From the NCBI GenBank assembly GCA_012514635.1, contig JAAYZX010000082.1, forward strand, positions 1 to 54,976: a stretch of DNA of 54,976 nt, read 5' to 3'. This document shows, one piece after another, positions 35,365 through 41,008 of this stretch; the first letter of the stretch is position 1, and the number at the start of each line of letters is the position of its first letter. The notes beneath the pieces were generated by a model. The model ran no database searches. It was not told where the DNA came from and saw only the letters and a program-made list of their open reading frames with translations. Position numbers and translations under genes: made by a program. The DNA is from Actinomycetota bacterium. Lineage in GTDB: Bacteria; Actinomycetota; Thermoleophilia; RBG-16-64-13.

Positions 35365-36859
35365 ATACCCCCCTCAATAAACTTCGCACCTCGTCGACCG
35401 GCTCAGCCAACATTTCCGACGGCACTATACCTTGTTCACGCGCCTCCTGCAGGCTGCGCTTAGGAAGCAGCACTCTGCGAAATCCGCGTCGCGCAAGCTC
35501 CTGTATCCGTTTCCCGGCCTGAGCAACATAACGCACATGACCGGTCAGGCTGATCTCACCAAAAGCTGCCGTGTCCTCCGGTAACGGCCGATCCCGAAGC
35601 GAAGAAGCAATGGCCAGAGCCAGAGGCAAATCTGCGCCGGGATCCTCAACGGTCAATCCGCCCGCCACATTCACAAACAGGTCTTGATCCGCCAACCGCA
35701 GACCCGCTTTGCGTGTCAACACTGCCGTCACCATCGCCAAACGATTGCGATCCAACCCGCGTCCCACCCGGCGCGGCACCGCCAGGCTGCTGGGAACAAC
35801 CAAAGCTTGGATCTCCGCCAGCAAACATCGGGTTCCCTCCACAGCCGCCACCACAGCCGCGCCCGAGTCACGCCTATCATCCTCCAAGAAGAGCGCCGTG
35901 GGATCGGGCACTCCCTGCATGCCCTGTCCGGTCATCTGAAAAACACCCACCTCGTTGGTGGAGCCGAAACGATTCTTGACCGCACGCAGCAAACGGTAAG
36001 GGTGGCCGCGCTCCCCTTCAAAGGTCAGAACGGCATCGACCATGTGCTCTAGAACTCGAGGGCCGGCCAAGTAGCCGTCTTTGGTCACATGCCCCACCAC
36101 TACCACAGTGGTCTCCTGAGTCTTAGCAATACGCAGAAGATGGCCGGTAACCTGCCTGATCTGACTCACAGAACCCGGCGCCCCCGCTGCGTTCGGAGTC
36201 CATAGGGTCTGTACAGAGTCGATTACGCATACGGTAGGCCTGTCCCGCTCCAATGCGGCCCCAACCTTCTCTACTTGTGTCTCGGTCAGTAGACGCAGGC
36301 CCGACGCGCCCTCACCAAGTCTGCGGGCACGCATCTTGACCTGGGCAGGCGATTCCTCGCCGGATACCAGCAGGACGGGAATCCCGCTTCCGCCCAAAGC
36401 CAGCAACACCTGCAACAGCAGCGTGGACTTGCCGACTCCCGGCTCGCCGCCCACCAACACCAGTGACCCAGTTACCAGCCCTCCTCCCAGAACCCGGTCC
36501 AACTCCTCGAGGCCGGTGGGTAGACGCTCCTCGCCGGATACCATGAGGTCGTCCAACAGGACGGAAGGGGGCGCGGCCGCCTCCACGGCGGCCGCGCCCC
36601 CACTCTCCACAGCCTGTTCGCTCAGCGTGTTCCAGGACGCACAGTCAGGACACCGTCCCAGCCAGCGCGAACTTTGATAGCCGCAATTGCTGCAGATGAA
36701 GACGGTGCGCCCTCGGCCACTGCGGGCCTGATTACTTGGCTTCGTCGGCGACGAGTACCTCCTCCGGCCTGCCGAGCACCTCAGCAATGAACAGGTGGTC
36801 GTCTTCGCGGTCGAGGATGACGGTGCTGCCGTTGGGCAGCTTACCGGCCAATACTTCAT
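35357..36859 (-). CDS. radA: DNA repair protein RadA (Sms)
   Basis: DnaB-like helicase that extends recombination intermediates. The family start is the zinc finger CSNCGYQSSRWLGRCPDC at about residues 56-73 of this frame. Walker A GGEPGVGKST, the KNRFGSTNEVGVF RadA motif and a C-terminal Lon-protease-like domain follow. The true start is unclear. The ATG at 36859 gives a 50-residue leader that overlaps clpC and does not look like RadA. A TTG at 36787 is nearer. An AGGAGG stands at the expected place near 36760, but no ATG, GTG or TTG follows it in frame. The call is firm, the N-terminus is not. Confidence 0.92.
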   Translation of the reverse strand: MKYWPVSCPTAAPSSSTAKTTTCSLLRCSAGRRRYSSPTKPSNQARSGRGRTVFICSNCGYQSSRWLGRCPDCASWNTLSEQAVESGGAAAVEAAAPPSVLLDDLMVSGEERLPTGLEELDRVLGGGLVTGSLVLVGGEPGVGKSTLLLQVLLALGGSGIPVLLVSGEESPAQVKMRARRLGEGASGLRLLTETQVEKVGAALERDRPTVCVIDSVQTLWTPNAAGAPGSVSQIRQVTGHLLRIAKTQETTVVVVGHVTKDGYLAGPRVLEHMVDAVLTFEGERGHPYRLLRAVKNRFGSTNEVGVFQMTGQGMQGVPDPTALFLEDDRRDSGAAVVAAVEGTRCLLAEIQALVVPSSLAVPRRVGRGLDRNRLAMVTAVLTRKAGLRLADQDLFVNVAGGLTVEDPGADLPLALAIASSLRDRPLPEDTAAFGEISLTGHVRYVAQAGKRIQELARRGFRRVLLPKRSLQEAREQGIVPSEMLAEPVDEVRSLLRGVFE

Positions 36860-39218
36860 CTGCCAACGTATCCTCTACCAGGCGTTGCATGGCACGCCGC
36901 AACGGCCGGGCTCCCATGGTGGGATCAAAGCCCTCCTCCACCAGGAGCTCCTTAGCCGCCCCGGTCAGCTCCACAGTGAGATCTCTATCTTTGACCTGCT
37001 CACGCAGCCTGTTGAGCAGCAGGTCTATGATCTCGCGAATCTGCGTCTTGGTCAGCTTGTGGAAGACAATGATCTCGTCCACACGGTTGAGAAACTCGGG
37101 ACGGAAGACGCGCTTGAGCTCTCCCATGACCCGGGTCTTCATGTCGTCGTAATCGAGACCGCCTTCAGATACCTGTTCCGCGAAACCCAATAGCTGGCCC
37201 TTGGAAATTGTCGAGGCCCCGATATTGGAGGTCATGATCACAATGGTGTTACGGAAATCGACCGTGCGCCCCTGCGAATCGGTGAGACGCCCGTCCTCCA
37301 AGATCTGCAACAGAATGTTGAAAACATCGGGATGCGCCTTCTCTATCTCATCCATAAGCACCACCGAGTAGGGGCGACGGCGCACAGCCTCAGTCAGCTG
37401 ACCACCTTCCTCGTAGCCCACGTACCCAGGCGGAGAGCCTACCAGCCGACTGACTGCATGCTTCTCCATGTACTCAGACATATCGATCTGAATGAGTGAG
37501 TCTTCGTCACCAAAGAGGAACTCGGCCAGAGTGCGCGCCAGCTCGGTCTTACCCACACCCGACGGCCCCAGGAATATGAACGAACCTGTAGGACGTCGAG
37601 GATCGCTGAGCTGGGCACGCGATCGACGGATGGCCCGGGACACAGCTTTCAGTGCTTCGTCCTGGCCCACCACTCTATTGTGAAGCTCATCCTCCATACG
37701 CAGGAGCTTCTTTGCCTCAGTCTCGGTCAGCTTGACCACAGGAATACCGGTCCACATGGCCACAATCTGCGCTATCTCGTCCTCGCCTATGGCCACCCGG
37801 TCCGCCTCCTCCGAGTTGCGCCAGCGCTCTTCTAGCTCGCGTTTCTCCTGAATCAGCTTACGCTCCTTGTCGCGCAAATTGGCGTCCTTCTCGAACTCCT
37901 GGTTTTCTATGGCCGCTTCCTTCTCCTTCCGCACCGACTGGATGCGTTCCTCCAGTTCCTTGTAATCAGGAGGAGCAGTCATGGTCATTATGCGCTTACG
38001 TGATCCCGCCTCGTCCATCAGATCGATGGCCTTGTCGGGCAGGAAGCGGTCACTAATGTAGCGGTCGGCCAACGTGGCAGCCGACTCCAGTGCATCATCC
38101 GTTATCCGCACGCGATGGTGGGCCTCGTAACGGTCCCGTAGGCCTCTCAGGATCTCGATGGTCTCTGGCACCGTGGGCTCCCTGACCAGAATCTGCTGGA
38201 ACCGTCTCTCCAGCGCAGCGTCTTTGGCAAGATGCTTCCGATACTCGTCCAGCGTGGTGGCGCCAATGGTCTGCAGCTCACCCCGTGCCAGGGCGGGTTT
38301 CAAGATGGATGCGGCATCGATGGCTCCCTCAGCCGCACCGGCACCTACAAGATTGTGGATCTCGTCGATGAACAAGATGATGTCGCCGCGTTCAACTATC
38401 TCTTTCATCACCTTCTTCAGTCTCTCTTCAAACTCGCCGCGATACTTGGAACCGGCCACCAGCGCCCCAAGATCAAGAGTGTATATCTGCTTATCCTTGA
38501 GCGTTTCGGGCACCTCGTTGTGCGCTATCAGCTGCGCCAGTCCCTCCACCACCGCCGTCTTACCCACACCGGGCTCACCCACCAGCACGGGGTTGTTCTT
38601 AGTCCGGCGAGACAGAATCTGCATGACGCGCTCGATCTCCATCTGCCTACCCACCACCGGATCCAGCTTGTCCTCTTCAGCGTAGAGCGTGAGGTTGCGC
38701 CCGAACTGGTCGAGCACCTTGGAGCCTTTCTTAGAGCCCGCCGCGCCGCCGGCCGCCGCGCCGGCCCTAGCCGGGCGCCGGCTGGAACCGGACAGCACTC
38801 TCATGACCTCTTGCCTGATGCGGTCCGCATCGGCTTCGAGATCAGTAAGCACCCGAGCCGCCACACCCTCGCTTTCCCGAACGAGGCCAAGCAAAATATG
38901 TTCCGTACCTATATAGTTATGACCAAGCGAGAGCGCCTCGCGAAGGGCCAATTCCAATACCTTTTTGGCACGCGGTGTGAAGGGTATCTGCCCCTGGGAT
39001 TCATGCTCACCCTCACCCACGATGCGCATGATTTCGCCACGCACATCTTCCAGCGAGACGTCCAGAGCCGATAGCACCCGAGCCGCCACGCCTTCACCTT
39101 CTCGCAGCAGGCCCAGGAGCAGGTGCTCGGTGCCTATATAGTTGTGCTTGAGGTCTCGAGCCTCTTCTTGAGCCAGGACTACCACCTGCCTGGCTCGTTC
39201 CGTAAATCGCTCGAACAT
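36732..39218 (-). CDS. clpC: ATP-dependent Clp protease ATP-binding subunit ClpC
   Basis: Hsp100 unfoldase that feeds ClpP and, in Bacillota, degrades arginine-phosphorylated proteins. Two Clp-N repeats (about 1-145, each with [13 protein letters not shown]-like sequence) precede AAA-1 ([16 protein letters not shown]). A UVR-containing middle domain, AAA-2 ([19 protein letters not shown]) and the ClpB-D2-small domain follow. At 828 residues it has the family length. It lies 11 bases after mcsB and overlaps the possible radA start region. The N-terminal pArg-binding domain is retained although the neighbouring McsB looks inactive. Confidence 0.97.
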
Positions 39219-39229
39219 AATGCTGTCTC

Positions 39230-40246
39230 CTATCTGAGAACGCGCGTATCTGCGAAAAACTCTCGAAGAAGGCGCGCGCGCACTTCATCTATAACGGGTT
39301 CCTCAAGTCCACCGTGAGCGGACCTGATCTCTTCAACCACGAGGTGGCCCGGCTGAATGCGCCGCATGAGCGCGAAGGCGCTTTGCGAATCGAACTGCGG
39401 CTCCGTGAGGCCCATATCACCACCCACTTGTAGAGCGGAGATGAGACTTACCCCTTCCTCCACTCCCACCGAGTACGCCTGCTGAGCCACTCCAAGCGCA
39501 CGCCCCACATAGTCGCGGGCCCGACCGGGATTCTCCCGGAACAGCCACTTGCGGGCCGTCCGCTCTCTCTCGGCGAGTAATCGGGCCAACCCAAGACCCG
39601 TCGCCATTAGATCACCTTCACTTCTTCCCGTAGTGCCCCTATTGAAAACCTGGAATACTCCACCGGCACCTTCCCAGAAGGGCGCTAGGGCGAAGCCCTC
39701 GGATTCTAGTTTCGTGACCAGCGGTCCCACCCGTCCGGTCACCATGAGAGCCGGTAAATGGACCGTTAAATGAACGCGCAATCCCGTCCCTGCAGTCTCG
39801 GGAAGCGCAGTCAGATATCCTCTGAATTCGTCGAAAGCCCAAGCGAACTCCGCTTCCAGTTGATCGTCCAACCAGTCCACTAATCCCCACAGCTCCAGCA
39901 GACGATCCGCCGGACGTGAGCAGAGAATTCGCAAATGTGAGATGCCGTTGATCTCCAACGATGCTTTGCCGGCACGGAACACCCCCAACGAGCGCCCTGT
40001 ACCGCTCTGCTGTGAGAAACCGGGCGTCATCAGGCCCCGCTCCATCAGGTACGCGCGCATAGCCAGGGAGAGATCGTCCAAATTATGGAAATCCCACTCT
40101 CCCGGCAACGAGTTTGTGCTCAGGTGATCAACCGCCCTGTCGGCAAGCCGTACCCGGGACTCATCGTCGGCAATATGTGGAAGCACAGAACCACCATCAT
40201 TTCGTTCCAAAGTCAGCGCCGACGCGACAACAAGCGTCTCTTCCAC
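39230..40246 (-). CDS. mcsB: McsB-like phosphagen-kinase fold protein, catalytic motifs lost
   Basis: By position (mcsA-mcsB-clpC) and overall sequence this is McsB, the protein-arginine kinase that marks proteins for ClpC. Alignable blocks include DDESRVRLADR, FDEFRGYLT and GTGLRVHLTVHLPAL. The active site is altered: the NEEDH motif reads NGISH at 100-104, and the CPTN-GTG loop reads LPETAGTG at 148-155 with no Cys. The RG-YGEGSEA nucleotide loop is shortened to WEGAGG near 191-196. A kinase activity is therefore unlikely, and an adaptor or scaffold role is possible. The GTG start has AGGAG six bases ahead and lies two bases after mcsA. Confidence 0.88.
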   Translation of the reverse strand: MEETLVVASALTLERNDGGSVLPHIADDESRVRLADRAVDHLSTNSLPGEWDFHNLDDLSLAMRAYLMERGLMTPGFSQQSGTGRSLGVFRAGKASLEINGISHLRILCSRPADRLLELWGLVDWLDDQLEAEFAWAFDEFRGYLTALPETAGTGLRVHLTVHLPALMVTGRVGPLVTKLESEGFALAPFWEGAGGVFQVFNRGTTGRSEGDLMATGLGLARLLAERERTARKWLFRENPGRARDYVGRALGVAQQAYSVGVEEGVSLISALQVGGDMGLTEPQFDSQSAFALMRRIQPGHLVVEEIRSAHGGLEEPVIDEVRARLLREFFADTRVLR

Positions 40247-40248
40247 GA

Positions 40249-40824
40249 CTAGCTCCTAGGGAGCCCTCCGAGCTCCGCAAGCCTGTCCCTAACGCACGCC
40301 GCTTCTTCAAAACGCTCCGATTCCACCAACTCACGCAGCATGCGACGCAGGCGCAGCACTTCGCGGCGCTCTGTGGCTCCTTCGGATCCCCGTGCCGGCA
40401 GCTTTCCAAGGTGCTGTTGGATGTCCTCATCCTCTTCTGCAAAGGACTCCAAGGCCAAATAGGGACCAAAGATCTCGTAGCAGGAAGCACACCCCAGCAG
40501 GCCGCGTTCCCGCACGTCGGCACTGGTGGTGCCACACGTGTCACAGTAGACCTCCGGCAACTCGTCCTCCGGTTCCGCGATTTCCGCATCAGTCACGCCG
40601 AACAGCCCTCCCAGCAGATGACTCACGCCCAGAGGCACGGCGAAAACCAGGGCGGTACTTGCCGCTTCCCGCCCCAGCTCAGCTGCACACGACTGGCACA
40701 GATTGCTGGCAATGATCCTACCGTCTTCCACCCTAGCCACGTGGACCGTAGCCGGCTGAACTCCGCAGGACTCACAACTGCTTGTCGCACTGTGTGGTTG
40801 CGGTTCGGCTCCTTCGGCAAACAC
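40249..40824 (-). CDS. mcsA: McsA, zinc-binding UVR-motif partner of McsB
   Basis: Stress-response adaptor that in Bacillota activates McsB. Four CxxC pairs (CESC, CQSC, CDTC, CASC) form two zinc sites. A C-terminal UVR motif (LRRMLRELVESERFEEAACVRDRLAEL) follows an acidic linker. The GTG start at 40824 has AGGAGG eight bases ahead. In Bacillota this gene normally follows the repressor gene ctsR; none is present here. It is the first gene of the mcsA-mcsB-clpC group. Confidence 0.92.
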   Translation of the reverse strand: MFAEGAEPQPHSATSSCESCGVQPATVHVARVEDGRIIASNLCQSCAAELGREAASTALVFAVPLGVSHLLGGLFGVTDAEIAEPEDELPEVYCDTCGTTSADVRERGLLGCASCYEIFGPYLALESFAEEDEDIQQHLGKLPARGSEGATERREVLRLRRMLRELVESERFEEAACVRDRLAELGGLPRS

Positions 40825-40934
40825 CGAGAGATCCTCCTATGATGACGCCCGCTGTTGCGGGCCGGGTACATGGCATTGTGTGGGGCAACGCAGTGCCGCA
40901 TCCGCGGGTGCCTTCCCCGTGTCCGGCCGCTCCA

Positions 40935-40968
40935 ATTCTACCATACAGGGTCTCTAAGAACCCTTGTA
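40935..40968 (-). promoter_or_regulatory. Candidate mcsA promoter with inverted repeat
   Basis: An extended -10 (TGG TAGAAT, hexamer 40935-40940) lies about 110 bases before mcsA. Just upstream, TACAAGGGT and ACCCTGTA form an imperfect inverted repeat (40944-40968) over the -35 position, where no good -35 exists. It could be an operator, or the hairpin terminator of lysS. No CtsR (GGTCAAA repeats) or CIRCE element is seen. Confidence 0.4.
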
Positions 40969-41008
40969 GAGGACCGTATTGACGCCAGATTCCGCTGCAA
41001 AACGACGT

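Follow-up and report, generated by a model that had tools for sequence, protein, structure and literature searches.

A conserved McsB-fold protein without the arginine-kinase active site in the mcsA-mcsB-clpC operon of a Thermoleophilia family

McsB of the Firmicutes is both a kinase and an adaptor of ClpC, and which of the two roles matters where is disputed. In Bacillus subtilis McsB, the numbering of which is used throughout, the substitutions R29K, R31K, R34K and R207K each abolish kinase activity, the C167S protein is described as kinase-inactive, and the lysine mutants of R255, R272 and R341 lose only the stimulation by McsA (PMC7235348). A loop of Staphylococcus aureus McsB docks the zinc finger of McsA (reviewed in PMC12467219). 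The presence of phosphoarginine and of its receptor ClpC in actinobacteria, with no McsB known in mycobacteria, constitutes an open problem (PMC9604228).

The protein described here resembles the McsBs of B. subtilis (6tv6, 8wtb), Geobacillus stearothermophilus (6fh1) and S. aureus (8gqd) in its two-domain fold (full-length identity about 28%), the McsA-docking GYL loop, the dimer domain and the mcsA-mcsB-clpC operon. It differs from them in the absence of R29, R31, E120, E121, C167, R207, E212, R337 and the N-terminal segment, in a shortened lid, and in a genome devoid of ctsR and of a YwlE-type phosphatase. Animal phosphagen kinases (arginine and creatine kinase) share the fold of the catalytic domain (TM about 0.55-0.60) but are active enzymes with another N-domain and no McsB dimer domain.

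The locus and the former active site

The window, that is the whole stretch of 54,976 nucleotides analysed, carries the following features, all on the reverse strand.

36732..39218 (-), clpC; N-domain GTEH sites, which we take to be the counterparts of the phosphoarginine-binding Glu32/Glu106, and LGF loop intact
39230..40246 (-), pseudo-mcsB, 338 aa; protein of the McsB fold that lacks the arginine-kinase active site
39275..39292 (-), IDEVRA in place of the phosphoarginine-receptor motif RDxxRA; R337 lost, D338 and R341 invariant
39659..39685 (-), APFWEGAGG, the shortened former nucleotide lid; four residues deleted, R207 and E212 lost, W and GG new invariants
39782..39805 (-), LPETAGTG in place of CPTNVGTG; no catalytic Cys167
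39806..39838 (-), AFDEFRGYLTA, corresponding to the McsA zinc-finger docking loop; G-Y-L without exception in the 18 homologues
39935..39949 (-), NGISH in place of NEEDH; E120 to G, E121 to I
40199..40225 (-), ASALTLERN in place of SSRIRLARN; R29 to A, R31 to T, R34 kept
40249..40824 (-), mcsA; two intact Cys4 zinc fingers and a UVR motif
40935..40945 (-), TATGGTAGAAT, extended -10-like element preceding mcsA and conserved in relatives

The reading frame of pseudo-mcsB opens with GTG downstream of an AGGAG ribosome site, contains no internal stop, and is separated by 2 nt from the end of mcsA and by 11 nt from the start of clpC. An earlier note, made from the letters of this DNA, had described an undamaged frame in a preserved gene order between intact McsA and ClpC, and this description holds; the order dusB-greA-lysS-mcsA-mcsB-clpC-radA is kept in the family wherever the contigs are long enough. 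On one long contig (L021) clpC, radA and dusB are split across frames, probably by sequencing error in the MAG. Since the extended -10-like element is conserved, TGTGNTANAAT being also found upstream of mcsA in relatives, the operon probably has a promoter of its own. Alongside this element, mcsA is preceded by a long leader (40825-41008 in the window; L026-L034). A covarying hairpin, CCGGCAC...GTGCCGG, is common to the leaders of nine relatives and, in those loci that were tested, matched no Rfam family; in the window the leader shows no more than a short GC hairpin ahead of the ribosome site. A pattern search upstream of mcsA found no CIRCE, HAIR or ClgR box.

Alignment with the McsBs of B. 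subtilis and Geobacillus bore out the three changes reported in the earlier note, namely NGISH for NEEDH, LPETAGTG without a cysteine and a shortened nucleotide loop. It further revealed the loss of the SxRxR arginines and of R207, the absence of the N-terminal segment of about 20 residues, such that the protein begins directly at the first strand, and the survival of R34, R125 and R176. All seven residues needed for catalysis in B. subtilis McsB (R29, R31, E120, E121, C167, R207 and E212) are missing. In the wider loop SCPTNVGTGLR has become ALPETAGTGLR, with leucine at position 167, and in the lid RGIYGEGSEAVGN aligns to APFWEG----AGG, with alanine at 207 and E212 gone. As four residues that are singly essential (R29, R31, R207 and C167) are lost together with both acidic residues, phosphotransfer by this protein appears very unlikely. 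A weak residual phosphorylation of arginine, or a different transfer reaction through the rearranged site, would find some basis in the remaining phosphate-contact arginines and the conservation of the cleft (see below), but is highly doubtful in view of those six losses and of the loss of the lid.

The protein clearly belongs to the McsB fold family, with a PF00217 score of 85.5 bits against a gathering threshold of 22.4 and a dimer domain. By its catalytic and nucleotide residues it falls outside the functional arginine kinases. It also scores below the NCBIfam equivalog cut-offs (155.8 against 385 bits and 134.4 against 500 bits), a weak criterion by itself, as only two of the four canonical Actinomycetota controls pass NF002194 and the other two reach 334-343. 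Annotation may wrongly label such proteins as protein-arginine kinases. The best solved structural matches are McsBs (8wtb and 6tv6, E about 4e-33; 6fh1, 1.8e-30), and no significant viral structural homologue was found. An AlphaFold2 model built from 18 pseudo-McsBs only (pLDDT 78) has a TM score of 0.81 to 6tv6, the octameric B. subtilis McsB. A model from 48 sequences reached pLDDT 94, pTM 0.90 and a full-length Foldseek TM of 0.87 to 6tv6 (rmsd 2.8), the canonical rows in its alignment biasing it towards the canonical fold. Both predict a helical turn at residues 191-196, the site of the kinase lid, and according to these models the two-domain McsB fold is retained.

Conservation within the family

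A search of 61 genomes, 18 from the same family of Thermoleophilia (Actinomycetota) and 43 from other families of the class, identified PF00217 proteins in 17 of the 18 family genomes (18 homologues in total) and in none of the 43. McsA and McsB occur together in the same 17 genomes, and both are absent from the remaining family genome (G011, 78% complete) and from the other 43; four of these give weak partial matches to the McsA profile, each a short segment within a longer frame. Genome G006, a MAG with 7% contamination, carries two different mcsAB copies (L008 and L018), probably from two organisms binned together. In the source genome (98% complete) pseudo-McsB is the only PF00217 protein and hence the sole guanidino-kinase homologue, which answers the question of a second McsB raised in the earlier note.

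The substitutions are shared by the relatives. R29, R31, E120, R207, R337 and Cys167 are gone in all 18 homologues, one of which has serine at 167; position 121 varies freely, with Glu in 3/18. E212 aligns to Gly or Ser, an alignment that is not unique, with a neighbouring Glu in the window protein, L007 and L017. In their place the family has fixed new residues: glycine at positions 120 and 219 and where the VEKH histidine stood, and tryptophan at 210. The family retains 2-4 of 10 strict catalytic residues, as compared to 7-10 (mostly 9-10) in 22 control McsBs from Actinomycetota and Lentisphaerae. Among the residues associated with stimulation by McsA, R255, R272 and R341 are invariant, and R86 and R281 are not kept, R86 being missing in canonical Actinomycetota McsBs also. 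All family members of McsA keep the two Cys4 zinc fingers, with their eight zinc-binding cysteines, and the UVR motif.

Strong purifying selection acts on mcsB in the family: comparisons of close relatives gave dN/dS values of 0.06-0.09, against 0.07-0.11 for mcsA and 0.01-0.02 for clpC. In a tree of 73 proteins the family forms one clade (support 100/100) on a long stem of 1.42 changes per column. Such a branch might be expected of a gene in decay that chance has left in the operon, or of an assembly artefact, an explanation that is extremely improbable and already contradicted by the data: the 18 reading frames are intact, derive nearly all from separate MAGs and encode proteins 42-62% identical to the window protein, and dN/dS is low and new residues have become invariant. 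Shared losses, low dN/dS, the position between mcsA and clpC, the joint absence with McsA and the status of sole homologue together indicate a conserved pseudokinase and not decay, as the earlier note had proposed: a kinase fold whose catalytic motifs are lost and whose relatives are conserved under purifying selection.

Measured against the remainder of the kinase domain, the docking loop has a conservation ratio of 1.41, the remodelled cleft one of 1.28 (interval 1.08-1.51) and the dimer domain one of 1.16; the intervals overlap those of some canonical groups, so that the ratios are support and not proof. Such a profile agrees with a protein retained for binding, in which the cleft would have been rebuilt and not given up.

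Possible roles beside McsA and ClpC

The reading preferred here, with a probability of roughly 0.6, is that an ancestral kinase-dead McsB was fixed at the base of the family and serves ClpC as a scaffold or adaptor that is bound to McsA and independent of kinase activity. Judging from its lost residues, the protein would be unable to hold the phosphates of ATP or to activate a substrate arginine. It retains both domains of the McsB fold, the dimerisation domain and the loop for docking McsA, and may form a complex with McsA and either deliver clients to ClpC or hold ClpC in check, while the McsA zinc fingers would supply stress or redox control. The adaptor role is plausible from the genetic neighbourhood and from the retention of the docking loop, R255/R272/R341 and the dimer domain. 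Precedents for kinase-independent action exist, as the B. subtilis mcsB C167S mutant retains part of MgsR turnover (MgsR half-life 12.3 min, compared with 17.7 min in the deletion; PMC7235348) and McsB, once released from oxidised McsA, can strip CtsR from DNA independently of its kinase activity (reviewed in PMC5506225). C167S is, however, a laboratory point mutant, whereas the family described here has fixed a replacement of its entire active site. Against an adaptor, the ClpC-adaptor function of B. subtilis McsB and ClpC activation are reported to be kinase-dependent (reviewed in PMC5506225). A natural, long-lived, kinase-free McsB accompanied by McsA and ClpC would separate the two roles and make them testable.

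The joint retention and loss of McsA and McsB, and the complete set of zinc-binding cysteines, could also be expected if pseudo-McsB, as a purely structural partner, mainly stabilised or sequestered McsA, the regulation of ClpC by stress or redox state being the work of McsA. This is unlikely, as by itself it leaves the conservation of the remodelled cleft and of the dimer domain unexplained.

As R34, R125 and R176 remain, a leftover anion-binding pocket exists, and ligand binding is possible. Since actinobacterial phosphoarginine has no known writer, the most interesting alternative to the adaptor reading is that the remodelled cleft binds phosphoarginine made by an actinobacterial writer and presents the marked proteins to ClpC. 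R34 is kept in 18/18, R125 in 15/18 and R176 in 15/18 homologues, the cleft is conserved above the rest of the domain, Mycobacterium smegmatis contains phosphoarginine although it has no known McsB, and the ClpC of actinobacteria binds phosphoarginine (PMC9604228). Such a function is nevertheless slightly less likely than the stabilisation of McsA: the McsB receptor site has lost R337, a YwlE-type phosphatase is absent, and ClpC, in which no erosion of the phosphoarginine sites was seen (both N-domain GTEH sites are intact), can probably read the mark itself.

Several candidate correlates of the kinase loss were discarded. CtsR was detected in a control organism but in none of the 18 family genomes and none of 396 sampled Actinomycetota, including those with canonical McsB. 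Its absence from the genome, noted earlier, is therefore confirmed, but not the interpretation of that absence as a sign of a rewired stress pathway; nor does the operon belong to a CtsR regulon. No YwlE-type phosphatase was found in the 18 family genomes (15 without an LMWPc match, three with ArsC-type P-loops), and it is also lacking in four genomes of another family (f12, g106) with degraded McsB; as some genomes with canonical McsB are also without it (for example G157), its absence is only supportive. McsA R96, needed for the stimulation of McsB, is replaced by a hydrophobic residue in 17/18 family members, and is uninformative as it is also replaced in f28 genomes that carry canonical McsB. 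Similarly, R337 is missing in most canonical Actinomycetota McsBs.

McsB across the Actinomycetota

PF00217 proteins are present in 55 of the 396 sampled Actinomycetota genomes. Catalytic residues are mostly canonical in families f11, f13, f28, f48, f50, f56, f73 and f76, and canonical McsB-McsA-ClpC operons occur in several families (L038-L057, L129). In family f12 (L043-L067, L128-L146) the number of catalytic residues ranges from 10 to 2 of 10 with McsA retained, and on these alignments f12 is a natural series of kinase decay. Degraded McsBs were also identified in f43, in one f13 genome and on one Verrucomicrobiales contig (L037). These degenerate proteins share with the window protein the gene order with McsA and ClpC and the loss of several catalytic residues; they differ in that their losses are independent, with other replacements, and their cleft is not preferentially conserved, the f12 proteins moreover keeping the length of the lid and often E120/E121.

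On the 73-protein tree the kinase-dead label requires seven changes, at least five of these being forced by well-supported branches, although the changes could in principle include regains and the label follows a lenient threshold of our own (seven or fewer of 10 residues), under which borderline proteins could be active. Kinase-dead McsB would thus appear to have arisen independently at least about five times. The occurrence of canonical McsB in other Actinomycetota families and the repeated origin of the kinase-dead form are new; the open literature searched, most subscription papers lying outside its scope, held no description of a natural pseudo-McsB. Several families have the canonical enzyme, others a kinase-dead form, and the remainder of this class no McsB at all; this gradation may run from enzyme through non-enzyme to loss, and it bears on the problem of phosphoarginine in actinobacteria. 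More tentatively, pseudo-McsB might have replaced the arginine-kinase pathway, either as a ClpC adaptor that needs no phosphorylation or as a reader of phosphoarginine, a change from kinase to non-enzyme that would have been made several times in the Actinomycetota before most classes lost McsAB. The McsB of the Verrucomicrobiales contig (L037:4731-5870), which lies beside McsA and ClpC, has neither Cys167 nor R125 nor a normal lid motif.
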